NCBI RefSeq assembly: GCF_964204645.1
Contig: NC_134030.1
Span: 6,508,278-6,572,277 of the forward strand
Direction of reading: 5' to 3'
Length of the DNA stretch: 64,000 nucleotides
DNA from: Tubulanus polymorphus
Taxonomy: Eukaryota > Nemertea > Palaeonemertea > Tubulaniformes > Tubulanidae
The notes under the pieces are model-generated. The model searched no databases, was not told where the DNA came from, and saw only the letters and a list, made by a program, of their open reading frames with translations. Numbering within the stretch: the stretch's first letter is position 1; every line of letters starts with the position of its first letter. Both the position numbers and the translations under genes were made by a program. Of the stretch, positions 42,117 through 61,598 are shown piece after piece.

Positions 42117-43558
42117 ATGGATATTGTATTGCATTTGTGCGATGCAAATATTCTGACGCCATACATCTATCCTAAAACCTGGAAGGAAGATGATCCATTG
42201 AGGCAGATTCTTGGTTTATTACTGATAGTCAATGTTGGTGGTTATTTGCTGTATTTTTCGGTCGCTTCGCTTAGTTATATATTCCTGTATGATAAGAGAT
42301 TGTCACAACATCCACATTATTTAGAGGTATAGTCCGAAATTCGATAATCCAAAAGCCTGATAGTCTACATGTGAAAATGCTTATAACAAAATAATTAAAT
42401 TTGCTTTATCAAATTTGATTCAGAATCAAGTGAAACTGGAGATATTGTACACAATTAAGTCGATTCCTCTAATGAGTTTACCGACAGTGTGTTTGTTCTT
42501 TCTGGAAGTTCGGGGTTATTCAAAACTCTATGACAATGTAGAATCTTCTTTAGGTAAGTTACAGGCTCCACTCTATTCAGATTATCGTTATTATCATATT
42601 AATCTGGTTGATGAGAAATTAGGATTAAGCATCATATTTCACATACATTAAGATGAAGACCATATAAATAGACAACCTTTCGATTTTGCTAATACGTGAA
42701 AGCAAGGGTGGATCCATCCACTTATTGTGAATACTGTTTTGCAACATTATCACTGGACCATAAGGGTTTGTTTGTCAGGGTCTTCCAGCATATTTTAGAA
42801 TTTTATCACCTCAGATGCATTCTGAGCATTTGTAGGGATGTTAGATTTACGGTATTACTCCACACATTGATCCAAAATACTACAAAAGTAAATCTGCTTA
42901 TGCATTTGATGTCTTCAAGAAAAGTCTTCCTTGAAAGAGCTACGAGTACAGTGGTAACAGCGTTAGGCTGGATCCCTGCCTGAAAATAATCAGATGTTAG
43001 ATCAGGGTTTGTTAAAATGTCTATTTCGGTCACTATTATTTTTCAGGAATGGTCGGCGTTGTTTTGACGTGTTTCTTGTTTATTTTTTTCACTGATTCGT
43101 TGATCTACTGGATTCATCGGTTTCTACATCACAAGAGCATCTACAAATACGTACACAAAGATCACCACAAGTGGAAAGTTCCGACGCCGTTCGCGAGTCA
43201 TGCATTTCATCCGATCGACGGATTCCTGCAGAGCGTTCCGTATCACATTTATCCGTTTCTGTTTCCGTTGCACAAATATACCTACCTCGTTCTGTTCGTG
43301 TTCGTCAATATTTGGACGGTTTCGATTCACGACGGTTACTACAGCGTTCCGAACGTGTTCAAGCCGATCGTGAACGGCTCGGCGCATCATATGGATCATC
43401 ATTTATTCTACAACTATAACTACGGTCAGTTCTTCACGTTGTGGGATCGCATCGGAGGTTCGTTCCGGTATCCGTCGGCGTTCGACAATAACGGTCCAAT
43501 CGATGATATGATCAGAAAGGGCATCATCGATGGCGATGAAGTTCAAAAGAAGAAATGA
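42117..43558 (+). CDS. SC5D: Lathosterol oxidase (sterol C5-desaturase)
   Basis: Three coding exons, 42117-42326, 42424-42553, 43047-43558 (stop TGA), phases fit, 283 residues (human 299). An acceptor TTCTAG at 42083-42088 implies an upstream 5' UTR exon. Membrane helices lie in exons 1-2. Fatty-acid-hydroxylase-superfamily histidine boxes: HRFLHH 137-142, HKDHH 150-154 and HHMDHH 227-232, which bind the di-iron centre; [20 protein letters not shown] and INGSAHH-like [11 protein letters not shown] are closely conserved with vertebrate SC5D. The enzyme puts the C5-C6 double bond into lathosterol in the ER, the penultimate step of cholesterol synthesis. Its presence suggests the host makes sterols. 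The frame at 42696-42983 is intronic. Confidence 0.97.
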
Positions 43559-44946: not shown

Positions 44947-47900
44947 ATGGATATTATGTACGCGTGTTTATTTGTATTTCTGTGTATCACTAAAGGTAAT
45001 TATCAGTTTCTGTTGAGAGTCCTCCATTAATTTTTCTTGATGATGTAAATTACTAATGTCTATTTATTAATGGATGAGACCTGTTTTTCTGGGATATTTT
45101 GCTTACTATTTTGGGGCACATACCTCATTTATGTCTTAACAGAATGCCAAAAATCGCGGACAACAACTGAATATCCGATATTATTCCAGTTCTGTACCGA
45201 TTAGATGGATTGGCAAAAAGACTCATTAAGTCCAGTTGAATGAGAGAGAAAATCCTCCATTTTGTGAAATTTCTTGGATTTGAACATTGTTACCATGCCT
45301 ACGCCACCCTGATTTAGTTGTTGAGACCCCACAAGAAAAATAACTTCATTTTGTAGGCATGGTGACAATGTAAAAATTCAAGAAATTTCACAAAATGGAG
45401 CATTTTCTCTCTCATTCAACTGGACTTTAGGAGTCTTTTTGCCAATCCATCTAATTGGTACAGAACTGGAAATATATCGGATATTCAGTTGTTGTCCGCG
45501 ATTTTTGGCATTCTGTTAAGACATAAATGAGGTATGTACCCCAAAAAGTAAGCAAAATATCCCAGAAAAACAGGTCTCATCCATTAATAAATAGACATTA
45601 GTACTACGAGTTACGACAGCAAAAAACGTCCCACCGCATTATTAACAATTTCTTGAGTTGAGAGTAACATTGGATTCATTTCGACAAGATAAATGAAGGG
45701 AAGGCCAAAAATTAACGACAACACCCCTCACAACAAAAATAAACGCAGGCTCTCACAAATTCAAATTAATTTTTTCTTATTTAGAAGGGCCTATTTAGAA
45801 ACACCTAGCTATAGGCCTAATTTTAGATAGGTATTCCTGCAATAATAATTTTGTATGATGTACGGTAAATACAAAATAGCGTAAACACATTGTTGCAACT
45901 ACTAAGCCTATGGTATTTATCTACCGTTATCTTTAGCCACACTGATTCCTGCCTCTGAAATTTGAATCTTAAAACTACAACTATCCTGGAATTAACCTAC
46001 ACGATTCTGCGGTTAGGTGTCCAAAATGGTTATGTAACCTTACTATCATCCTAATCCTTAGATTAACACTATAGCCGTGAGGAATCGAAAAGGGACCGAA
46101 ACTGCAGTTTGACCAGTTGGGCGCAGTCATAAGGCCCAGGGTCCATACACAAAGATCGAACTAGCGAAGTGTATTTAATTGCAAATTGTGGCCAATTTTC
46201 ATCACAAATCCCAATTTATCCTGGCGGTGGTAATATGGATCCATAAACTGACCATCAAAACTGGTGCCACGTAGTAGCAGTCTTCTGAGTGAAACTTTCT
46301 TTTCTTTTCAGGGCTTCTGTTAGTAGACGCGCAGCAGTTGACTGCCTCGGTACTAGTTTCTCCGCCGACGCAAATAAAAGGCGACAAAACGACATTGATA
46401 TTGACGTATGAACCAAAGTCGACACTGTCCACAAACATAAATGTTCAAATAAAGAAAGTTATAGTGTCGCCTAATAAGAATGAAATGGAAAACGTGGCAA
46501 CTTTTAAAGGAGCAAGTAATGTGCTGGATTCTAGTCCTAAGTTCAGTCACCTACAGCTTGAATCGGTTGATAGCAATGGCATTAGATTGAAGTTCCAGCC
46601 AACAAACTTTTCAGATTCAGGCTCTTATCAGGCAACATTTGTGCGCATGTCAGATTTTGATACATTCATGGCTGCGTTCAGCATAGATGTTCAAGGTAAA
46701 TGCAACCATACAGAAACCCATTCATTTGTTCATTCTTTTTCCCGTGCTTTCCTCAAATCATTTGAATCGGACTAATTTTGTGTTATTGAATGAACCCTGA
46801 AACAGAGTAGTTCGGTTGACAAATACAAATTCTAGTAGACTCGTGAACACCACTTCATCTTGATAAAGTATAAAATAATTTGTTATCGAGGCTGAAAAGT
46901 ATATTCTTCAATTGAATGTAAAATCCCACCCACAATTGTCGAAAGGCTAGAAGGTTTATTCAAAATACAAGAAATATTTCGGGTGGTTGCTACACATGCT
47001 TCTTCATTCTAAAAATCATTTTACATGCGGATATTATGATCTTACTGATTCATTGTTCAATTGAATCCATAATGATGAGTTGAACTTATATAAATCAGGT
47101 CGATAAAATTATTCACCCTCGTGGAGCTGGCTGCACCATCCATGCTGTCGCAATTAGATCTCTGAAGCTCATAAGATTTGTCTCTGTTTGTTTTTCAGCT
47201 TACCCCGGTAGACCGACGATAACCGTTAACAATCAAGTCGCTACCGAAAACGACAGTAACTTGATGATTACTTGCGTCGGAAACGTCGGTAAAACCGCGA
47301 CAACGGGAACCGTCCGTATGTTCACAAAGATGCAGTTCGAAACCGTGTTCAGGCAGATTCCAAACGGAGACGTGCAGACGCAGAGCGTGTTAAACCCGGA
47401 TGGAACGACAACGATCACCGCTTCAGTTTTCACCGGCGTCGTCACATATCAGATGAATAAGGCGATATATCGCTGTCAAACGGAAAATAGTTTATTAAGC
47501 GCGAACGAGGAACGTTACTCGGCTGACGTGACGCTGAATGTCCAATGTAAGTTTATGTTGGTATTTTTTTCAGGACAGTGTGAATTCCCCTCCTTAAGTG
47601 TACATTTTTGGCTATGTAACCCTTATAAACACGAGTAGAGTTATGAGTACTCGAGTAGCCAATTATTATTTTCTTTTTTGAATTGGGATCTGTGAGCTTT
47701 AAATAATAGGCTCTAATGTTACAGGAATTGCAAAACCCTTTAGAAATAGGGCACGATTTGTACAATTATATAGTAAGAGTACTCCACTAATCCGCCATTG
47801 TCATACCCTGCTACCGCTTCATAGATTGGTATCTCAGTTTGATTTACGTTTCTAATCATGAAAACACAGAATTCACTCATTAGCACTCAGGAATTTCACT

Positions 47901-50900
47901 ATGTAGTGTCAATTACTCCTCAGAAAATTGAGTGCTAATGGGTCAAATCAAACATCTTGGTGAAGTCGGGAATTTCATAAATCCTGTCGTGGTAGTTTTT
48001 TCTAAGTAAGAGTTTTAGTTGGTATCCCGACGACAAACAATAGTCCCAGGGATGCTTTTAAAATCAAGGCCACCCCCTCAAATGGAGACCTTTTTCAGTT
48101 TATCACTTGACGCTTGTAAAGTTATTTGATCGAATTGATGAAATTATTTAAGATGTGTAAATTGATTTTTCTGTTCGCAGATAGAGTACGCGATGTTCGC
48201 ATTACGCCCGTCGATACAAACGTGCCCCGCAATTCGAGGATTGTGTGCGTCGCTTCGGGTAATCCTGAACCGGCCGTCACGTGGGAGCGAATATCCGGAC
48301 CTGTATTCGCAGAGATCGCGCCCGGCGTGCTTCAAATACCGCTGACGGCACTGCCAGGAACGCACGAGTATCGATGTAATGCTAAAAATACGGTTAACGG
48401 CGGAGTGGCGGTCATCAATAAGTCTTACAAATTCAACATCACCGGTAAGTAATAATGATCACCAACAACGCCTCCTGTACGACAATCATGACACTACTGG
48501 CGCGAATGTAAACAGTTTAGTCACTAGATATCACGCCACACATCGCATCCTGATTACATCGAGGCATCTGTTGTTGTTTTTTAATAATACAAATTTACTT
48601 CCATAACATTCAATCTGTCACAAAAACAACCGTCGGACTCATCGAAACAATCATACTCGATAATAGGGGACAGGTTCTTCTGCGATGGTGTAGCTGTCAG
48701 TCCCCTCTTTATGCCTACCCCTCTAAGATAAAATCACAAGATCCAGTGGCTGATTTTGAAGAACTTGTCACAACCCAGAAGGGCAATTTGATGTTCAAAA
48801 ATATGAGGCGCACTACTGAACTGAAATGCCCCTACTTGTTGTTGAAAAAAAAATACGGGAAAAGGGCGCTCCAAAGATCCGATAGACTTGCGCAAATCTC
48901 CCTGGAGACTATAGCCATCCATATAAAGACTTCAGGTCTCTTGTGCGGAAACGCAGGCATTTTTAAAATGGAAATGTATGACAGTCTTTTACCTGAACCT
49001 GCAGGCATATTTTATATAGACATTTTATCGCTACTTGCGGAAAATCACTTCATGAAGTCTTCACCCATAAACAGGTGATTGATACTAGGAACCAAATATG
49101 GAAAAATATTCATATCAAAATGTCCGTCCGTGTGATAAACTGTTAGCTAATTATTATTGGCATTTTGACAGAAATCTGGCCGATATTTCGCGAATAGTAC
49201 GAATAAACGGAAAATTAGGTCATTTTCATCATCCTCGTTAATTATCATCACCGGGGCCTATACCAGCGCGAGTGCGATAATTATGTTGATTATCAATGAT
49301 GATAGGTCACGCATATTTAAGGGTTAAATGTCGCTTAACGAGATAGAGAGAAGATATTATTTATTAGGACAAACGTCGTAATTTCGTGTTAATTGAAATA
49401 TACCGAAATTAGGTAAGGATATAATTATGACTGAATAAACGTCATCATCTTTTATCATAATGTACTTGATGGTGAATCTAATTGATAGAGTTGGGCACTG
49501 TGCCGGCTATAAATCCTAGTCCCCGAATTCGTCTCTGGTTAAAATACCAGGCTGTTGACCTTGTCAGATACAGTAACCCACGCCTTACTCGGACGTGGTC
49601 AACTCTGACAAAAATCAGTTTGACTCTAATGTATTTTCATATCTTTAACTTGGATTTTGTTTATCTCAGACCAATTTTGCTGGTCCCAGTTTATCTCAAG
49701 TAAGGCATTTATTTTCAATCCTAAAGAAAAACTCAATTAGGAAATCTGTTAGTTTCAATCATATAGGTCTGTAGTATTAAGTATTTCATTTTAATGTGAA
49801 TTAATAGTATTTTTATAGTAATTGTCCTTGCTCTTGATGTGACATGTATTAACTGTGCCGTGTACACATACAACTATTCAAGTGAAAACCTGCCTTCATG
49901 CACACCGCTCCCGCGTACAATAGAATTTAGTACCGTTTTTACTGGTGAAAGAATGATTTAAGTACGAACAAAAATTTCGTCTATTGTTTCGCCTCTAGCA
50001 ATAGCAGGGGGGGGTTGCTCTGCTAAAAATACGTTCAGAGCTTGATCAAAATTTTTTTTAGGCGATTGTTTTCAAGTACCGGTACGTCATACGCTCGGGC
50101 AGATTTTAATGCGATATCTCGCGTTGGCGTCGATCAGAGCAATAATACGTTTCTTGTTTGGTATTCAGACTTTTGAATCGGACGTTTTATTGAAAATCGT
50201 TACCTCAGATATTCCGGCAGGTGTTCGAGTGTCTCTGTTCATAAATAATTATCGTATATACAAGTGGGACAATACTACTGTCCATGTGCGCGTCGTCGAA
50301 GTCCACACGTCAAGACAAACTGTTTTAATACCTACTTTATTATCTTATAGACGCTAGATTTGAAATAGTGTTGTCGATAGAGCGAAAACTGAATCGCGAC
50401 TAAAACCAAATTCATCCTTGAAAAATAGTATGCCCCCTGTAAAAATCCTGGTAAAAAAGTGACCACTTTCATAAAGACCTGGGGGACCTTCATTCTAGTC
50501 AAACAACATACTGTATCAGTTCAGAAAAAAGTGTTGTTATTGTAGATATTAAGATAATCTAAGTTCATTACTTCGGGACTGGTTAAATTCATTATATCTC
50601 AACAAGGGAAATGACAAATAGATGTGTTATTTCCTTTTTCAAAGTCAATCCTTGTTCGATTTGTATTCTGGCTGTTATCAGAAATCTGTTAGGCGTAGAG
50701 GGCAACAACTAATAAGAACTGTACTCGTTTATTTATACCAATTAGTCATTACTAGCCAGCAGTCATCACGTCCTTATCACGTCCTGTTCTGTGGTTCGGT
50801 CTTAAAACAAAACACAATTTTTAACTTAGGAGTAGACTTGGAAGTAAGATAACATTGTTGAGATTTTTGATATAGGCCTAATCATCATCCATAACAGGCC

Positions 50901-53900
50901 TCTGTAACCTTAATGTCATCGGGATAAGTCTGACTAATGTATTGTGGGGCGTTGTTCGGTAGTGAGTCATTCATTCATTCATTCATTAAAATGACTCTAG
51001 GACGCTCTGTTTGTGAGTCGTTGTATCGCAGTGCACCTGTGACTGGTTCACTATATTCTCCTCATCTAGTGTGCAGCAGATTAGATTTACTATACGGCTG
51101 TGAAACAAACATCGCAGTGCACCTGTGACTGGTTCACTATATTCTCCTCATCTAGTGTGCAGCAGATTAGATTTACTATACGGCTGTGAAACAAAACCAA
51201 TAGATCTAACTCAAGATAGCGACAAACCTTTTGAATTTTGCTAGGCCCCCTAGGACAGGGTGGACACTTACCTGGATATCCGGGAAAAGTCGAGGATTAA
51301 TCAGGGACTTTGGTAGAAAAAAAGCTATAAGTTAGAAATTTGATGAGATTGCTATATCACACGCAGAATCAAACAGTTTCCGTCTATGTCTTTATTTATA
51401 TGACTGTGTAAATCGATTGGTTCTTAGCAGATCAAGTCAGAGAAAAAGCTACGCCAATAAAGGTCATGCTGTAGGAGTACGTACCTCCTCAATCTTTTAG
51501 AAAGATTTTGGCCTCGTTGATCATTTGTAACTCAAAACCATTGAGGGATATATTTTTTCGTAGCATTCCAGTGAATTAAGTCATGATTTAAAGCAGCATT
51601 GTTTGTAGATTAGGTTTTTTTTTTCGTGCTTAAAGGTTCGACGTAATTTGCTGCGGGCTGATTTACATATAATGTGATTCAACAATGAGTTTGTGAACGG
51701 GAATCAAATTGTAAATATATGCTGATGACCTGTATACATGCACAACTACAGTACATTATCAAAATCAGTTCATTATATTCCCCGCAATAATCTGGAAATA
51801 CTTCACTACTCGGCAAAAGACAGAAGTACTCGGGGTATGGGAAGTTATATGATTTGAACGTTGGTGCCTACTATTTATTAGTGCTTTTGAGTAGTAGAGG
51901 TTATTTCTGAAAATCCTGTATGAATCCCACGAACTATTCTTAATACACACATCTTTAATCTTAATTGTAATATACGGTAACGCATGTCATACTCAAAACA
52001 CATACCGTCATTTACGTCTCTCTCGTATCAATATAGCACAAAAACATTCTAATGTAGAAATCTATCGGCAAAACGATAACAACAGTAGATACTCTCTCAT
52101 TTTAGACAGACACACTGCGTATGATCTTCGTTGCATGTTTTATTATTATTTTTTTTCATGTTCTCTATTATTTTCAGCCTTACCGACCACGATACCACCT
52201 CCAACAAATAATCCAACTACGCCAAAAACAGGTGATGAAAAATACGCGTGCAGTATGGCTGCGATTCGTCCCCGTCATTTCGGGGGTATTTTGATAACGC
52301 CGGATACGACGGAGAACTGCACATAACCTAGCTTCATACACCAAACATAAATCATCATAGGCCTACCTAAATTTGATAAATCTAAAAAAAATGTCATTTT
52401 CTTCTATCTGGTAGTAAAGATCTTGAAGATATTGTATAGGCCTAGTAGAGAAGTTTTTGGTGTATGAAGCATGATTTGTAGGTGTATTTAGTGTTTAGAT
52501 GGGTGTGGAAATGATCTTTTTAGCTGAATAACTTTCACCAGCACGCTTTCATCTTTTAAAGTCTATAACGCTTTACAATCATTAGAACCTCTATATACTC
52601 TATGTCTGCATTGATGTGTTTGTGCTTCTCTATTTCTGATGGTGATTTCGTTCAGAATTATTCTGGATTTTGTAATGTTTATGTATAGGTGATGGTTTAA
52701 TGGACGTATGGACATATACATCATACAACAGGGCCGTACAGATACCCACAACCTCCCGTCCAGGTCCAGTAAGCGTATCTTTCTAGCCGTATTTTTTTCC
52801 GCAAGCTATGTTAACATATTACCAACAAATTATGTCATCGGAATTCTGTGAAGGGTAGAAGAATTATTCTATGTTTTATTGGGCTCACTTTCGGCCACTG
52901 TTCTACGTGGTAATTCTAAACTCTGGACAGGGCATCTTGGTTCGAGATAAGACTCAAATATCCATACGAGAGAACTCTCGCAATAATTCAAAGATGTACG
53001 TGAGGTTCTTGAGGAAAAGAGTATATCATTTGAGTTATGGTTCGGCTAAAGACTATCAGCCATCATCAGGCGTACTCGTATTCATTAACTCAAGAACGTA
53101 ACATCTTTGGCCGATTTATTGTGGGATTTCTCTCATATGTTAACCTTACACGGATATTATCGTGTATCATCTCGACTTATCAAATATCCACGGATAAAAA
53201 ACACCAGCATTTATTCATGACCCAATAAATAGAACTATTTATATAACGGCGGGTATGGAAGAACATTTCGATCTCCCCTCAATCTGGTAGGATCAATGAT
53301 ATGTCAAGTGCGTCGGTTTCCTTCCTTGTTTCGACTCGCCTTTCCGCGTTGCGTTGTGACGACCCATTGAACAGTAATCGTAATCGATATATTCTATTCG
53401 TTTTGCCGGCGACTAATGCTACGAATGGCAATTAAATTCATTTCAGCCTTTTCAACCTCCGCCACTTTTCCATAATGAATACGGCGATATATGCGCGTGT
53501 TAAGCAATCGATTGATGAAAAATTCTCCGATATAGATCAGCCATTCGGAGTTAGAAAGATGATATGGGCCGAGGTGAATAGCATCCGCCCTGCCTTTATT
53601 TCCGCAGCGCCTAGAAACAAACTGCCGGAATTCAGGTGTGCGTATTTCACCACCCATCAAACAACAGCACTCATTAATATAACAGCGTTACAAATAATCA
53701 CTCCTTTTATACAGTACATAATGGTGTTTAGTCTGTCAACGAGAGTTTAATAACTCATTGTAACGAGTGTGTATCTAACATTAGCAGGTTCTCTATGGAA
53801 TTACATCATCGAGAGTGTTGTCTTGGAACAGGTCTTTAAGTTTCCACCCAGTTTGTTTCCTAGCATAGCGCGCTTTATTAGCCTACGAATTAACTGACAT

Positions 53901-56900
53901 AGTCTTGAATCTCTTACAATATTATAATCGCTAGTCTTCGATTTTGTGTAGACATAAGAAATAAGTGAAGATTTGTTCTCGTTATCAAGTAGTAATAGTA
54001 CTTGTCCAATGAACCCGCTCTATATTTTACATGCACTGTCTCTACGCATAGGTTGACAAATGGTTGAGGTATTCATTCAATGCTTGAGTAAACAAACCAA
54101 ACTCGAACACCTCACACATATTTCTCGGTATTGACCGCAGTTCACGGGGAGTTGCTCGCGAACCAGTTTCTCTTATTATACATCCATTGTCGATTTTTTC
54201 GAACACTTTCGATCACAACTTTCCTGTTATTTATGAATAGAAGATGAATGGAAATGTACACGAAAAAGAATCTAACGCATTTGCTAATTTTGGACTCGAG
54301 CTAAAGCTGGATGCTTTCAAAGTTTGATATTGGATTCAGTTGTTTTTTAGTACTAGTAGGGTTTGATATTACTATTAGTATATTCACCGCTGAACTAACC
54401 CTCCTGGCTTCAAAAGCATTCCGAGCACAAATTCTTATGTCATTTAAACAGTAACAAACCTAACAAAGATTTGCCTTAACTGGAAATACTCCACATATAT
54501 ATACATATATCTGTATGTATGTGTGTGTATATGTATATATGTATATATATATATACGTTCTTTTATTACCAGTTACTATATTAGATAATGATTTCGATAA
54601 CCACCACGCACCAAATACTAATAACACGATAAATCTATTGTCTCGCTGGAGAAATCTCTTTAAAATTCATGTTAATACAAATTCATTACTAGTTTATTCC
54701 AGGGGAGCTTTATGCTTAATGAATCAATTGAATCAAAAATAGGCGAATAACAATAATGATCGACATTCTACTAAAGAGTGCATATTCAGTTAGTTATGTA
54801 ATGAAACTGTAGGGGTCGCCACGTCCTGAGCTCGTCGTCGTTCCTAGGTTGGCGAATGTTCTGAATTCTCTGAATGCGTTGCTGTTCAGATATAAAATCT
54901 TGATTTCTTTGACGTCTGATAAAGCTATAGCATTATTGGCGATGAAAGCATTTGTTCTTTAGATATGGTTACTTGAAATAGGCTGTGAATATCTAATTGT
55001 CTGGATTAAATTCCGCATCGTGAAGCCAAAGGATGCGATATCTTCAAACATAGCGTCTTCGTGCCTAATGCATATTTTCTCTTGGCCTATATGTGTCATT
55101 AATTTTCAATTTTAGGCATCAGCTGAAACCATGCTACCGGTATATAAACTTAGGGAACCTTGTCATTTTCAATGACCCAAGATTAAAATCCTTGTATTCT
55201 GACTGAATTTGAATCGTGATGTTTTCTTTGCATTGGCAATTATCTATACTGTTAGGTGATAAGTGAAATCGTGTGATTTCTATATTCTGCGGGTATTTTT
55301 GGTTCCTTCCTCCGCCCAAGTATTCCCGGTATATAAAATATATATTGAATATATGAGATTGTCCTCTCTTCTGCTTACAGGAGGAAGTACTGGAGATGAT
55401 AAAGATGGTATGTATTTATGTACAGCATGCTTACACCCTGATTTCCTTTCCCCGATGACTCGTTTCTTTAAATCTAACACATTTTTTCACGTTCTTTAAT
55501 GAACGAACATTTTATTTGTTGTAAAATACGTTTTTCTAAAAATCATATCTGGACTACTGTCGATTTCGCATTAAATCGTTCCATTTTCATTTGTAAATGA
55601 TTCTCTTCGAAAAAATATTTTCGTGGCAGACATTTTTTGAAACATTAGTAATTAATTCTTCAGTTTCCCCGTTAATGCCAAGAAAAACATCGTAAAAGTG
55701 TTTGGTTTCACTCGTGAGTTGGCTGTATAAATAAGAATGGAATTTATAACTATACGTTCGATATGTATGAAAAATGTCCAGATATGAACGAACCGGATAT
55801 AATTGAAGATATTGACACAGCGGGTGATGATCCCTCATTCACCTCGGCAACTAGTCATTGTTTAATATGATAGTTTTTCTGAATGCCCTCGAAAGATGGC
55901 AGCACATGGATACGAAATTTACTTCTCGCACGGGAGAAGACTTCATTTAAACTATTGATATAGAATATAGATGAATCTGCGTACTGTATATTGAACTGAT
56001 GCTTATTCTACTATTTTCACCGGTCAACTTTCACTGTAGTGTTGATTTTAGTTTGTGGCATGTGCGAACTGTAATCTTCATCTTTGTCGCTAGGTGGTGC
56101 CACGTGTACGTGTGTATGTCGACTGATATGGCCACCAGGTAACACGCACCACACGTCGATTCTCTATTCACTGTTACTCTCTGTCAGTCACGCTATTCAA
56201 AATTCTGATGTCCGATTATTATTATTAACAAGCTATCTTATATACCGTAGAAAATCTTAAACCGCCGATAAATTCAGTCAAGACTGGGCGAGGCCATCGA
56301 TCAGAATTTTGAATTTTTAGTTCGATTCTCTTCTAGATAGTTATTAAATATCTTGAATATTATCTTTTTAGTTTTAGATTAGTATAAAGTGATTTCACGC
56401 ACTTACAGGAAACCTTTGATACTAAATCCTTTATCTAGTACGCTGTGTGTTAGGTGCGAGAGGTCGTCCATCATGTGCTGCCATCTATGTTGTGAATTAT
56501 TCTTTTGCGGCCATATTCTCGCAAAATTACTCCTCCCTTGAGCCTGACGTACTCAGCGCAGGGAAACACGGAAGCAAGAGACAGAAACATGTTTCCGAGC
56601 ATTTCCTCGTGTCGTGTACGTAAACAAGAAACATGATTTAGGGATCGATGTTTCCGAGATCGAACATGTTTGTTTCCATATTTCCCTGTTTCCGTGCCAC
56701 GCCTGGTTGGGCTCGATGCAGCGATTCAGACCCTGGGGCTGGTTGCATAGTCATGGCTTAGACTTAAGACCAGTCTAAGACCAACTAAGTTCTATAGCCA
56801 ATCTAACAGCTTAAGACCAGTCTTAAGATTTAAGACCACTTTTGGACTTAAGTCACAACTGTGCAACTTGCCCCAGGTGACATTGCAAGATTCTGGTATC

Positions 56901-59476
56901 GTATAGTGACAGTCTCATACAGCCATCAGGTTCAAATCTCTGCTGAGAGGATACTTTTTCAATACTATAAGATACATTATGGAATATGTACTCTTTGTTT
57001 TGCACTTCAATACATGTTTGATAATAATAATAATAATACATTGTCCCCCTATCATTCTTGAATCGTACTGACTTCCATTAATTTTGAATTTATAACAGAT
57101 GATGATGCCCGACCTATCATGTATTATCATAATTTCGAAGCTGGTACTGTAAACATTGAAATCTACTCGGGCTATGTTTTCTCTTTATGTTATCTTGTAT
57201 TTTCTATTCAATGCCGAGCTGCGTACGCAAAATGCTACCTATAATACTAAAGTTTATAACGATAGGTAACGAATTGCTGCTACTTTGCATGGATTTCTTT
57301 TATTTCAATTGAAATAATGATGAAGATTCTTGCGAATTTCATTTTATTTAGAATTTCAAGCCACATTTTAGCAGTCTTTCAACTTATTTATTGTTTTTAT
57401 CTGACCATCTTAAAATCAGAAATCTTACCGGTATTTTTTAAAGAATTTCTTTATTTATGATCTTTCACATTTCATGATGCATGATTTCAAAAGAATATTT
57501 TGTTTAAGATAGACTTAAGCCCAACATCCTCTCTAGTTCATTCCGGTAGTTTTATGAATAATTGAATTAGTTTTTCATTGATGTATATATTCATATATGG
57601 TCCTCACGATTTCACACAGTAACTTAAAGGCATTTTGCACAACGGTGTTGTCCGCAACAGGTTTTAGGGGGGCAGCCATCCCTTTCATTTTTACATCTTC
57701 CCCTCTGCAAATCAGCCACCCCTTATAAAATATCTGCTGCCCCTAAGAGAGTAGATGTCAATATTTGATCTATGCTGATAAACTGCTTTGAAATATATGT
57801 GAAAAATAGATGACTAAATGAAAATTTAGCCCTGCTGCTTCAGCAGCCACAATTTTATGATGCAGACCCTTTAAAATTCCAGCATATGGAAAACACGGAA
57901 CATGTGTCCTGAAAAATTGCCTTTATTTTAAGACTTTACGCTGTCTTAGGATTATGAACGTTTTAAATAGCCGCCAGCATTCATTATTTACATCGATTTT
58001 GTTTTGGTTTCTATTTTAGGTACAGTTTTGTACGCTTCAATAGGCGGTGTATTGGGAGGTTTAGTTTTGGTGGCTCTCATTATTCTAATTATATACTTCT
58101 GTTGTATTCGGCGTCGTAAACAGCCCCCGTTTAACGAAGATCAAGAAAAAGGGTAAGAAATCAGTTTGAATTTTTCTATCCTTTCCTGATTTGCCATTCA
58201 ATCATCCAACACAAGCTCACGCTAACAGTCTCTTCATTGGTCTATTAGACCGCCCAAGTTTTCTTGGGCAGATAGGTGACCGCTGGGCGGCCACCTGTCC
58301 GGCCGGTCAAGAAATCTTGAACGGTGTCAACAGGGTTTGTGTAGGCGTGAGCTTCGGCATGAGGCAATCGAACCCTGGTAAGCAAGGATGCATTTAATAG
58401 GCTTCGTATGTATTGTATTCGCTCTATTTCTGTTTATTTGTAGAACCATGGCCAATAATAACGCTCCCGTCGGTAAATATGATATTGATATGGACGAAAA
58501 GCCAGCAACCGATGTAAGTATGAAACGTTGTCACCTGTTTTCTCCCTCCCTAATAATCTTTCCTCCTGACAGGAGTCGGATTGATATCAGAAATATGAAA
58601 TACTAATGTAGAATCGTGGAAGATTTTAACAATCTGTATAAAATCATGGAAAGGTGTGAAAAATTTACGAAAAGTGTCTCATCAAAATAGTTTGATCCCT
58701 TTTTGCAATATACTGTGGTGCTCCGGAATATGCTGTGGGATTTATCCAGCGCAGAAGCTGTGGATAAGTTTGTAAGAAATTTTAAGTTTTCATCCGTACA
58801 GATTGTGATCAGTAACTGCTTGTTTTTGTTAACTACAAATTTCCAAATACCTTGAAGAAATAATGCGAAAAAATCCTGGTATTTTCTTGTGATAAATGAA
58901 AGCCAATTGGAAGCAGTTAAAATAATGTGAAAATTCCAGAGTTCATCAATCTGACTCCTGCTACATGAAAATCACGATTTAAGCATGAAAATCTGATTTA
59001 CCTCTAATCCGTTTATATATACGAACGTATAGAACATCGCTGTAGTTCCCGGTACGGTGCGATTAATATCGAGCAGTCGATTTACGAGCGGCGATTTCAG
59101 CGACCCGGGATTCAGTCATTATCAGTTATCTTCATCGCATCCGGGAGCGGGAGCGGTAGCTGCATCGACCTACGACTCGAACAGCGACGTACATAGCAGT
59201 ACGCACGACTCCAGTACGCAGTATAGCACGCGCGACTTGGTCGACGACGTCGACCCGGAGGATAACGACGATACACCGACGGTCAGTTACACAAACTTAC
59301 CGAATGATCCGTCTCCCGAACCGGAGAATGTTGCGCCAGCAGGTGGAAATGAACGGGACGATGTCGATAACACTACGGATGCCGCTGCTAGCGACGCTGC
59401 TAGTACGAATGATTCCTTCACCGAAACCCCGGACATGGGTCGACGACGCACTTTATTATACAACTATTTAGTGTAA
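44947..59476 (+). CDS. Ig-superfamily single-pass receptor with ITIM-like tail
   Basis: Exons 44947-44995, 46312-46695, 47199-47546, 48181-48444, 52178-52231, 55381-55407, 58020-58152, 58444-58513, 59033-59476 (stop TAA) join in frame to 590 residues. Residues 1-~28 are the signal peptide (MDIMYACLFVFLC...). Ig1 (28-144) has the DSGSYQATF signature but no Cys pair. Ig2 (145-259): Cys170 and Cys237. Ig3 (261-348): Cys283, Trp295 and Cys326, I-set-like. A Thr/Pro stalk (LPTTIPPPTNNPTTPKT) and a 27-base micro-exon follow, then a membrane helix ~378-404 (GGVLGGLVLVALIILIIYF) and basic stop-transfer CCIRRRK. The tail includes DTPTVSYTNLPND, an ITIM-like VxYxxL at 527-532. Every ectodomain boundary is phase 1, typical of exon-shuffled Ig genes. 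The C-terminus NYLV resembles a class II PDZ ligand. Ligand and orthologue are unknown; likely cell adhesion or immune recognition. Confidence 0.75.
45053..45601. mobile_element. 549-bp palindromic element with TA target duplication
   Basis: In Ig-gene intron 1. Arms of ~250 bases (45053-~45300 and ~45353-45601) are inverted copies with few differences, around a ~50-base spacer (CCACCCTGATTTAGTTG...). Outer ends are CTAATGTCTATTTATTAATGG. TA flanks both ends (45051-45052 and 45602-45603), the target duplication of Tc1/mariner-type elements. No transposase frame. Confidence 0.8.
50967..50990. repeat. (CATT)n tetranucleotide repeat
   Basis: TCATTCATTCATTCATTCATTA, about five units, inside an Ig-gene intron. 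Confidence 0.85.
51025..51195. repeat. Perfect 86-bp tandem duplication
   Basis: The 86-base unit starting ATCGCAGTGCACCTGTGACT at 51025 is repeated without any difference from 51111 to 51195. Identity of the two copies suggests a recent duplication or an assembly artefact. Confidence 0.9.
53400..53660. other. Unexplained GC-richer block in Ig-gene intron
   Basis: An island of richer sequence (TTGCCGGCGACTAATGC, ACCTCCGCCACTTTTCC, AATACGGCGATATATGCGCG, GGCCGAGGTGAATAGCATCC) with open frames on both strands, but no splice sites, no family resemblance and no repeat partner in the window. It could be a conserved non-coding element, an unrecognised exon or a transposon fragment. Confidence 0.3.
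54495..54555. repeat. TA/TG microsatellite
   Basis: Alternating TATATA, TATG and TGTG units (ATATATATACATATATCTG then GTATGTGTGTGTATATG); low-complexity sequence. Confidence 0.85.
54794..54958 (-). pseudogene. Possible LRR-like fragment, antisense in Ig-gene intron
   Basis: The minus-strand frame from the stop upstream of 54958 to TAA at 54794-54796 reads NAFIANNAIALSDVKEIKIL, then YLNSNAFREFRTFANL, resembling leucine-rich repeats (LxxLxxLYLxxNxF). It ends with TTTSSGRGDPYSFIT. No splice site or start codon is visible, and only one to two repeat units remain, so this may be a relic of an LRR gene or chance resemblance. Confidence 0.3.
56545..56700. repeat. Inverted-repeat element (GGAAACACGGAA)
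   Basis: GCGCAGGGAAACACGGAAGC at the left and ATTTCCCTGTTTCCGTGCCACGCC at the right are inverted, with an inner pair ACATGTTTCCGAG / CGAGATCGAACATGTTT. About 155 bases, MITE-like, in an Ig-gene intron. Confidence 0.5.
56734..56878. repeat. Small MITE (CTGGTTGCATAGTC ends)
   Basis: GGGGCTGGTTGCATAGTCATGGCTTAGACTTAAG at the left; GGACTTAAGTCACAACTGTGCAACTTGCCCC at the right. Internal repeats of TTAAGACCAGTC. Related ends appear near 29487 and 33655 (GGGGCCGGTTGCTCAAAAG, GGGGCCTGTTGCAAAAG). Confidence 0.6.
57020..57040. repeat. (TAA)n microsatellite
   Basis: ATAATAATAATAATA run of about six units. Confidence 0.8.
57640..57900. repeat. GCAACAGGTTT-family interspersed repeat
   Basis: Unbroken relative of the ATP5MG intron repeat: CCGCAACAGGTTTTAGGGGGG, CACCCCTTATAAAATATCTGC, TCAATATTTGATC, GCTTTGAAATATATGTG, CTTCAGCAGCCAC, AAAATTCCAGCATATGG. 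Serves as the empty-site reference for the MITE at 38056. Confidence 0.6.
58240..58377 (+). ncRNA. Compact hairpin array in Ig-gene intron
   Basis: Five consecutive inverted pairs in ~140 bases: GTCTATTAGAC (58240-58250); GCCCAAG/CTTGGGC around TTTT (58252-58269); AGGTGACCGC/GCGGCCACCT with one mismatch (58274-58296); CCGGTCAAGA/TCTTGAACGG (58303-58324); CAGGGTT/AACCCTG (58331-58377) enclosing a GCTTCGGC tetraloop. Also GC-richer than the intron around it. Fits a structured RNA or a folded transposon end. It is not a tRNA. The overlapping frame 58191-58397 has no splice borders. Confidence 0.4.
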
Positions 59477-60439
59477 ATGTTTACTCATTGGTTTTGCTGC
59501 GGTGTCCGGGAATTTTATCGTCAAGTTTTCAGCAGTTCGCTCTTTTCAGTCGTTCTTTAGTTTTTGTAGCTAGCTTCGCTTATGGACCAGTTATATAATT
59601 TGGTTTAGATGTGAACCTAGCTCAAAAATAGTAAAAAACTTTTCAATGAAAACTGTCTATTGTACTTTATATCATGATTCAGATTCGCTAAATTTCATTC
59701 TTTTTAATTCATTTTCTTCATTTTCATCTTTCTTCGTTTTGTTATTCTTTTTTTGCAGTCTGTTTTTTCAAAAAATTATTTTTTGTTTGCATTGTTTTTT
59801 ATTATTTCTAGGAGCCATTATTGATAACCGAAGTGGTGAACTAAGACTGTGCCTGGCTTGCGTCATTCTATCTATATATCATTGTTTGTATGTTCCATCC
59901 ATCTCTCAAACATATCCGAGGATTAAATGAAATTGTTTGTTTGCATTCAAAAATCTGCATCCGAGAATGATAGTCGAGCTTGATTTTGCTCAGTTTTCAA
60001 TGCATGATCACTCGATCTCTGACCTCCGTTCAGTTTCACCTGAATCCATCTCTGAATGTATATCTTCTATGCAAGATCTCTGATATAATCTAATACATCT
60101 ATAATCTAGTACATCTTTTTAAGCAGCCATTCTTTGCTGATGCTGCGGCAAAACAAACAGTCTCATTTCTTGTATTGGCTTTCTAGTAACGGCTTCTGTA
60201 GCTATAGGGTATAGGCGCCTGTCAGCTAACATACTTAGTTCATTTCATCTACCCTTGTTAGCGTTTTGAACTTTATGGAATCTTGAGACTCTGCCACAGT
60301 ATAGAGGCCCAGGTGAACAGCTTTTGTATTTAGCTAATAAGAAGTTGTGTTATGCTTTAGTATGTGATATACATGTATAATGAGAATTTTGATTGCCTGA
60401 GTATGTCATTGCGTGGTAATACTGTACAGTCAACCGGTC

Positions 60440-60480
60440 TACTAGAGCAGTGGTTTCACTGGCGCCATCTAGTTCAGAAT
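60440..60480. promoter_or_regulatory. CTCF-like motif GCGCCATCTAGT
   Basis: GGCGCCATCTAGTTCAG at ~60460-60476 matches most of the CTCF core (YGCCMYCTRSTGG) on this strand, with the last two bases different. Confidence 0.25.
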
Positions 60481-61472
60481 TCTGCAAGGGAAGATGAATT
60501 CATAAAGATAATTAACATAAAAACTACCTATCATTTCATCGTTAAAACGAACACAACGCCACATAGATGTAAATCAAGTAACTTAGGTTCAGGTCACATT
60601 AATCCTATAAAGATAACGATATTCATGTATAAATAAGATGTTTTCATCCGGATTTATTGAATTGCTTCGTGCAGTTTATTGTCGTGTGTATTTTTTGCAC
60701 TTTATTTTATAGTTAGTAATTTTCATGAGGCTTCGCGCACTACTAACTTACCGTAAACTCAGAGCGGATCTTTTCGAAACTGAAATCGCGGAGCGATGGC
60801 AGATCATATGAACGTGAAATTTCGGGGCGCATAGCAGCAGCCAAGTTTCAGTTCACCATTTCGCGTGATTACGTTAAAGCTATAATGATGATGATGGATG
60901 AAATAAGATATCTTCACTTTCAGGTTTTGTCTATCATATATAGAGATATGGCGCTTATGTATTTCTTGTGTAGATTTTGAGAATGATAAACGATGTAGTG
61001 CTCGTGGACATCGCTCTCTTCTAAAAGGAAAAAACTGCTCGTCGAATAGTAGATTCCTACCTTTATCGCAGAGGAACCTCGAATCAAACAATATTTGACC
61101 CAAAAAATAAGAAAATTTTATTCATCTTTGATCAGTTGTAAAAACCAATTTACACCATGAATTGAGGTTCCGCTGTATCGGCATGTTGTATATTCATAAA
61201 ACTTGACGATGTACGGTAGATTTCCCCTTACTCCGATTACATTGGGGAAGTAAAATGGTTTTAGTAAAAGCAAATTTCTTCCAAGCACGATCAGCGTAGG
61301 AAGGAATCTACTGTACGGACTATGATGTTACCATCAAAATTTAATCGATCCTTCTAATTTTATCGCAAACTAAAACATAAGGAGCCATTGTTCCATTGTA
61401 GTTGCTATACTACCCTTTCGCGTTGTTTTATCATCACAAGCGTTACGACAAAGTTTTTGTTTCTCATTTCAG

Positions 61473-61598
61473 CCCAAACATCTAAACGCCGAAAATCTGG
61501 TGTACGCCGATCTGGCGATGGACGACACGCCGCGCAGTCGAAAACCAATACAAGTAATAGACGATCGCGTGGATTACGCCGATATTCGCCGAGTATGA
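61473..61598 (+). CDS. Alternative last exon of Ig receptor with two ITIM-like motifs
   Basis: Behind the acceptor TTTCTCATTTCAG the frame starting PKHLNAENLVYADLAMDDTP continues to DDRVDYADIRRV and a stop (61596-61598). It opens in phase 0. LVYADL and VDYADI fit the ITIM consensus (I/V/L-x-Y-x-x-L/V/I). In the preceding exon (59033-59476), phase-0 donors exist at 59282 (ACG/GTCAGT, which would drop VSYTNL) or at 59471 (TTA/GTGTAA, which keeps it). Joining is inferred; alternatively the exon is a second gene's end, but no other gene reads into it. Confidence 0.5.
   Translation, partial: PKHLNAENLVYADLAMDDTPRSRKPIQVIDDRVDYADIRRV

Follow-up and report, generated by a model that had tools for sequence, protein, structure and literature searches.

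Receptors of the immunoglobulin superfamily (IgSF) that carry immunoreceptor tyrosine-based inhibitory motifs (ITIMs) are already known from invertebrates (oyster, sea squirt, and cnidarian), and the gene described here is therefore another instance of an established type. It lies at positions 44947 to 61598 of a 64,000-nucleotide stretch of the Tubulanus polymorphus genome (the window, G000:C6:6508278-6572277) and is a single-copy animal gene for a cell-surface IgSF receptor. In Botryllus, FcoR is a type I IgSF protein with ITIMs, in which splicing exchanges the ITIM and a hemi-immunoreceptor tyrosine-based activation motif (hemITAM), and the Alr genes of Hydractinia are candidate ITIM-bearing IgSF receptors (PMC12065747). 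In Daphnia Dscam, tail exons with an ITIM or an immunoreceptor tyrosine-based activation motif (ITAM) are included or excluded (PMC6851185). Oyster IgIT and CgIgIT2 are invertebrate IgSF receptors that appear under titles calling them inhibitory in the passage of PMC11999971 that cites them (references 93-94); the wording of that passage assigns an activating motif to the oyster receptor, whereas the cited title speaks of an inhibitory receptor. Among vertebrate proteins, MPZL1/PZR has ITIM tyrosines Tyr241 and Tyr263, which Src-family kinases phosphorylate and to which both SH2 domains of PTPN11 bind, and the phosphorylated protein is linked to adhesion and migration (PMC5599542).

The present gene resembles each of these systems in part. 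Like Crassostrea gigas IgIT and CgIgIT2 as that passage describes them, its product is a membrane-spanning IgSF protein of an invertebrate; by description only, CgIgIT2 has five Ig domains compared with three here (PMC11999971). It shares with FcoR the type I IgSF design and the ITIMs, and in FcoR signaling motifs are swapped by splicing. FcoR, however, combines a V-Ig, a sushi, and two C2-Ig domains and belongs to a polymorphic histocompatibility locus, whereas a Pfam scan of the present receptor found no sushi domain. Dscam differs by having ten Ig domains, six FNIII domains, and hypervariable exon arrays, none of which occur here. Expanded allorecognition clusters are multicopy; in contrast, searches of the receptor's own genome (an animal assembly of 267.8 Mb in 77 contigs, for which all search results are lower bounds) found no second copy of the first Ig-like domain or of the tail, for which the gene itself was the sole match. 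The likeness to MPZL1/PZR consists of two ITIMs near the C terminus, with tyrosines 22 residues apart in PZR and 24 here. The last MPZL1/PZR motif is also of the YADI type, and PZR has one V-type Ig domain rather than three Ig-like domains; homology between the two proteins was not detectable by search. CEACAM, SIRP, KIR, and Siglec proteins, to which the first-pass annotation had compared the gene, are similar in layout alone (Ig domains, one membrane helix, and an ITIM tail). No family tie to them was detected: the Pfam scan gave none, phmmer against PDB returned generic matches to Ig domains of the neural cell adhesion molecule type, and the tail had no match. Oyster IgIT, Botryllus FcoR, and vertebrate MPZL1/PZR are the closer functional analogues.

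Two candidate last exons and their tyrosine motifs

Eight common exons on the plus strand (44947-58513), with canonical GT/AG splice sites and phases that agree throughout, precede two candidate last exons, both on the same strand and both starting in phase 0. Exon A (59033..59476), called from its open reading frame and codon score, terminates in TAA; the tail that it encodes is long and acidic and includes VSYTNL (59282-59299) and LLYNYL (59453-59470). Exon B (61473..61598), called from its acceptor and codon score, fits straight onto 58444-58513, encodes LVYADL (61497-61514) and VDYADI (61569-61586), and terminates in TGA. Both ends are coding in character. The leave-one-out codon score of exon A was reached by none of the 28 intronic open controls and that of exon B by none of 1,261, and GC content drops past the stop region of both. 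The acceptor of exon B is strong, with a pyrimidine fraction of 0.87. The nine phase-matched exons of the first-pass annotation are thus confirmed, as eight common exons plus last exons, and the three motif strings that it listed are present; LLYNYL is an additional ITIM-like string that it had passed over. A third phase-0 end at 59812..59844 on the plus strand, encoding EPLLITEVVN and then a stop, is a weak candidate only: its acceptor is good (0.80), but its codon score was equaled in 88 of 7,652 intronic stretches.

Since exon A has its own stop (59474-59476), full-length exons A and B cannot be translated in series. Donors 3' of VSYTNL (59329, 59362, and 59470) score -2.3 to -2.9, compared with 7.2 to 10.4 for the constitutive donors. 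A product with up to three ITIMs, as had been proposed, is therefore unsupported, and we rejected it. The simplest and best reading of exons A and B is that they are predicted alternative C termini.

We tested the cytoplasmic pattern [ILVS]xYxx[ILV] against composition-preserving shuffles. Both tyrosines of exon B lie in such strings, 24 residues apart and near the C terminus, and this pair exceeds chance expectation with P values of 0.0027 for the exon and 0.0020 for the whole tail. For VSYTNL and LLYNYL of exon A taken together, P was 0.016 to 0.018. VSYTNL also conforms to the pYxN consensus for Grb2. A search of the tail against PDB gave chance matches only. A weak match to the tail on C9 of the same genome (L011/L014) was set aside; as read by eye, it apparently falls in a gene of the sushi type whose membrane helix is generic.

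SHP-type phosphatases and a proposed working of the receptor

Searches of the genome with SH2 and PTP families identified two SH2-SH2-PTP loci, at C7:4118074-4125084 (minus strand) and C7:19099445-19105016 (plus strand). The tandem SH2 region of the former, pieced together from exons, matched human PTPN11 in PDB with an E value of 6.6e-98 and PTPN6 with one of 1.3e-70. A SHP-type tandem-SH2 phosphatase is thus encoded in the same genome as the receptor, and by best match this gene is the putative SHP2 orthologue. The latter locus (L018) is a second, diverged SHP-like gene, so that two SHP-type phosphatases, both on C7, are found in one invertebrate genome. Separately, many clustered matches to tyrosine phosphatase domains were seen at C12:1076482-1467821 and nearby, apparently a tandem expansion.

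On balance, we lean towards a type I receptor of the IgSF for adhesion or recognition, in which alternative last exons decide the tail and the ITIM pair of the exon B form docks SHP2. Upon ligand engagement, a Src-family kinase would phosphorylate the tyrosines of LVYADL and VDYADI in the exon B form. The tandem SH2 domains of the organism's own SHP2 orthologue would then dock on the phosphorylated pair, which would relieve autoinhibition of the phosphatase and damp or retune tyrosine kinase signaling. We infer the phosphorylation and the SHP2 binding by comparison: the short tyrosine signals of the tail probably recruit SHP2, and recruitment to the exon B tail on engagement, as in MPZL1/PZR, is the most likely course. 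The exon A form would have another output, through VSYTNL, acting as a single ITIM or as a pYxN Grb2-type site, and through LLYNYL at its very end. Inhibition would be one of two outcomes, since phosphorylated MPZL1 is linked to adhesion and migration and SHP2 recruitment need not inhibit. Of the ITIM-bearing Ig receptor with inhibitory signaling that the first-pass annotation had envisaged, the type I layout with ITIM-like motifs in the gene model and a docking phosphatase in the genome are borne out, and inhibition itself is a prediction.

The choice between two tails could be avoided if the receptor had one mature long tail, in which a shortened exon 59033-59281 is spliced to 61473-61598 and the product contains LVYADL and VDYADI only, the VSYTNL end being a retained-intron form. 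The best internal donor of exon A would serve for this. It lies in phase 0 after 59281 (ACG/gtcagt), scores 6.2, at the 97th percentile of GT sites, and its use would cut off VSYTNL, which starts at 59282. We regard such a single tail as unlikely, because this donor falls below all eight constitutive donors and because the coding composition runs on to about the stop at 59476. It is highly improbable that exon B belongs to another gene or is no exon at all, which would place the C terminus of the receptor at 59476 and leave it no more than one convincing ITIM. Exon B does lie 2.9 kb from exon 8 and the join is predicted from sequence; against this, its acceptor is strong, its phase fits, its codon usage resembles that of coding sequence, and it has a stop codon.

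An alternative of a different kind accepts the exons and concerns the tyrosines, which in an ordinary adhesion molecule of the IgSF might serve endocytosis (sorting of the YxxL/I type) or adaptor binding, the resemblance to ITIMs being incidental. YxxPhi sorting motifs overlap with ITIMs, VSYTNL also suits a Grb2 pYxN site, and lone ITIM-like strings occur in other IgSF genes of this genome, such as SQYSEL in L022. Two motifs near the C terminus with a 24-residue spacing, however, look more like tandem SHP2-binding tails than like sorting signals, and SHP2 is present in the genome, so that we consider this explanation rather unlikely, if somewhat less so than the single mature tail. Some points weigh against the SHP2-docking receptor with alternative tails that we prefer. 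All exon joins are predictions from the DNA; the acceptor of exon A is the weakest of the gene, with a pyrimidine fraction of 0.40, which would suit a regulated exon; the ITIM pattern is loose; and single-sequence AlphaFold models of the first and second Ig-like domains, with predicted local distance difference test (pLDDT) values of 45 and 36, were too poor for a fold search. In a stricter positional control of the pattern, two such strings were found in 3 of 78 well-accepted open stretches of the window; the other two of these stretches overlap each other in the hydrophobic region of a hydroxylase gene.

Shared exons, ectodomain, and neighboring genes

Exon 1 (44947..44995, plus strand as for all exons) was called from its translation and its donor (AAG/gtaatt); it contains the start codon, encodes the hydrophobic signal peptide MDIMYACLFVFLCITK that opens the product, and ends in phase 1. 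Each of the three Ig-like domains corresponds to one phase 1-1 exon. Exon 2 (46312..46695), called from phase and splice sites, encodes the cysteine-free domain 1 (Ig1), which ends in ...DSGSYQATF...; exon 3 (47199..47546) encodes domain 2 (Ig2), with two cysteines and without tryptophan; and exon 4 (48181..48444) encodes domain 3 (Ig3), with a C-W-C arrangement and a match to Pfam Ig_3. The stalk is formed by exon 5 (52178..52231; 54 nt), encoding the Thr/Pro sequence ALPTTIPPPTNNPTTPKT, and by the micro-exon 6 (55381..55407; 27 nt), called from splice sites and phase and encoding GGSTGDDKD; both could be skipped in frame. Exon 7 (58020..58152, phase 1 to 2) encodes the membrane helix (approximately 58040-58105) followed by the basic stop-transfer sequence IRRRK, and exon 8 (58444..58513) a short basic juxtamembrane tail, ending in phase 0 at the donor GAT/gtaagt. 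The helix, at residues 387 to 405 with a hydropathy of 3.0, is the only one, so that the product combines a signal peptide with a single membrane helix, as an IgSF receptor does. Signal peptide and helix were called by a hydropathy scan and reading by eye. Scored with a generic matrix, none of the eight constitutive donors falls below the 99th percentile of the window's GT sites. Two repeats lie in the introns. In intron 1, a near-perfect inverted repeat at 45051-45603 has 194-nt arms that are 94% complementary, 50 nt between them, and outer 65-nt arms at 97%, and it is likely a miniature inverted-repeat transposable element (MITE)-like element or a hairpin insertion. Between exons 4 and 5, an 85-nt unit is tandemly duplicated exactly at 51025-51195, with a spacing of 86.

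The signal peptide, Thr/Pro stalk, and single membrane helix of the first-pass annotation are confirmed, and its three Ig-like domains are upheld unevenly. Ig3 is the sole domain above a Pfam cutoff (31.4 bits against a gathering score of 30 bits for Ig_3), which gives the receptor an Ig domain with statistical support. By phmmer against PDB it matches many solved Ig chains of a generic receptor phosphatase/contactin type, for example, PTPRS with an E value of 8.7e-9. Ig1 and Ig2 remained below the Pfam cutoff, with only a V-set trace (E = 0.13) for Ig1 and a nonsignificant C2-set_2 trace (E = 0.22) for Ig2. Ig1 retains the F-strand-like signature DSGSYxA, and its exon is coding-like, with a codon score exceeding 48 of 48 intronic open controls. 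Ig2 is 35% identical to an Ig domain at G000:C6:6073253-6073558, in another IgSF gene on the same chromosome, 435 kb away. Both domains are classed as Ig-like, tentatively, mainly from position and exon phase and, for Ig2, from this paralogous domain.

The related gene (L012/L013, G000:C6:6067000-6074500) has a V-set domain with normal cysteines, in addition to the domain resembling Ig2, and apparently its own membrane helix; an ITIM pair was not seen in the piece of its tail. The IgSF gene at L022:2-2764 (G000:C6:5182000 on) has three Ig domains, one FN3-like stretch, and a membrane helix. When its tail was read for ITIMs, no tandem pair accompanied the lone SQYSEL, and the tail ends in DTEV, which is PDZ-ligand-like. 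A further IgSF gene on C6 (L019/L020), read for an ITIM tail, showed no clear tail. Within the window, the adjoining gene at 43016-43558 encodes a fatty acid hydroxylase domain (PF04116, 93.6 bits) with the histidine boxes HRFLHH, HKDHHK, and HHMDHH, and probably has more exons upstream, from about 41925.

Meaning of a proposed choice of tails

We infer alternative splicing of the last exons, and its strictest form is a possible, if doubtful, extension: mutually exclusive last exons would toggle one Ig ectodomain between a tandem-ITIM tail for SHP2 and a VSYTNL tail for Grb2 or a single ITIM. The finding alone does not demonstrate an immune function. If the reading is true, the known range of the tandem-ITIM/SHP2 module would grow by one more invertebrate, and the gene, compact and present in a single copy, would be one whose signaling tail may be selected by splicing. 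Splicing would then couple recognition of one ligand to differing signaling outputs, outside the known cases of Botryllus and Daphnia.

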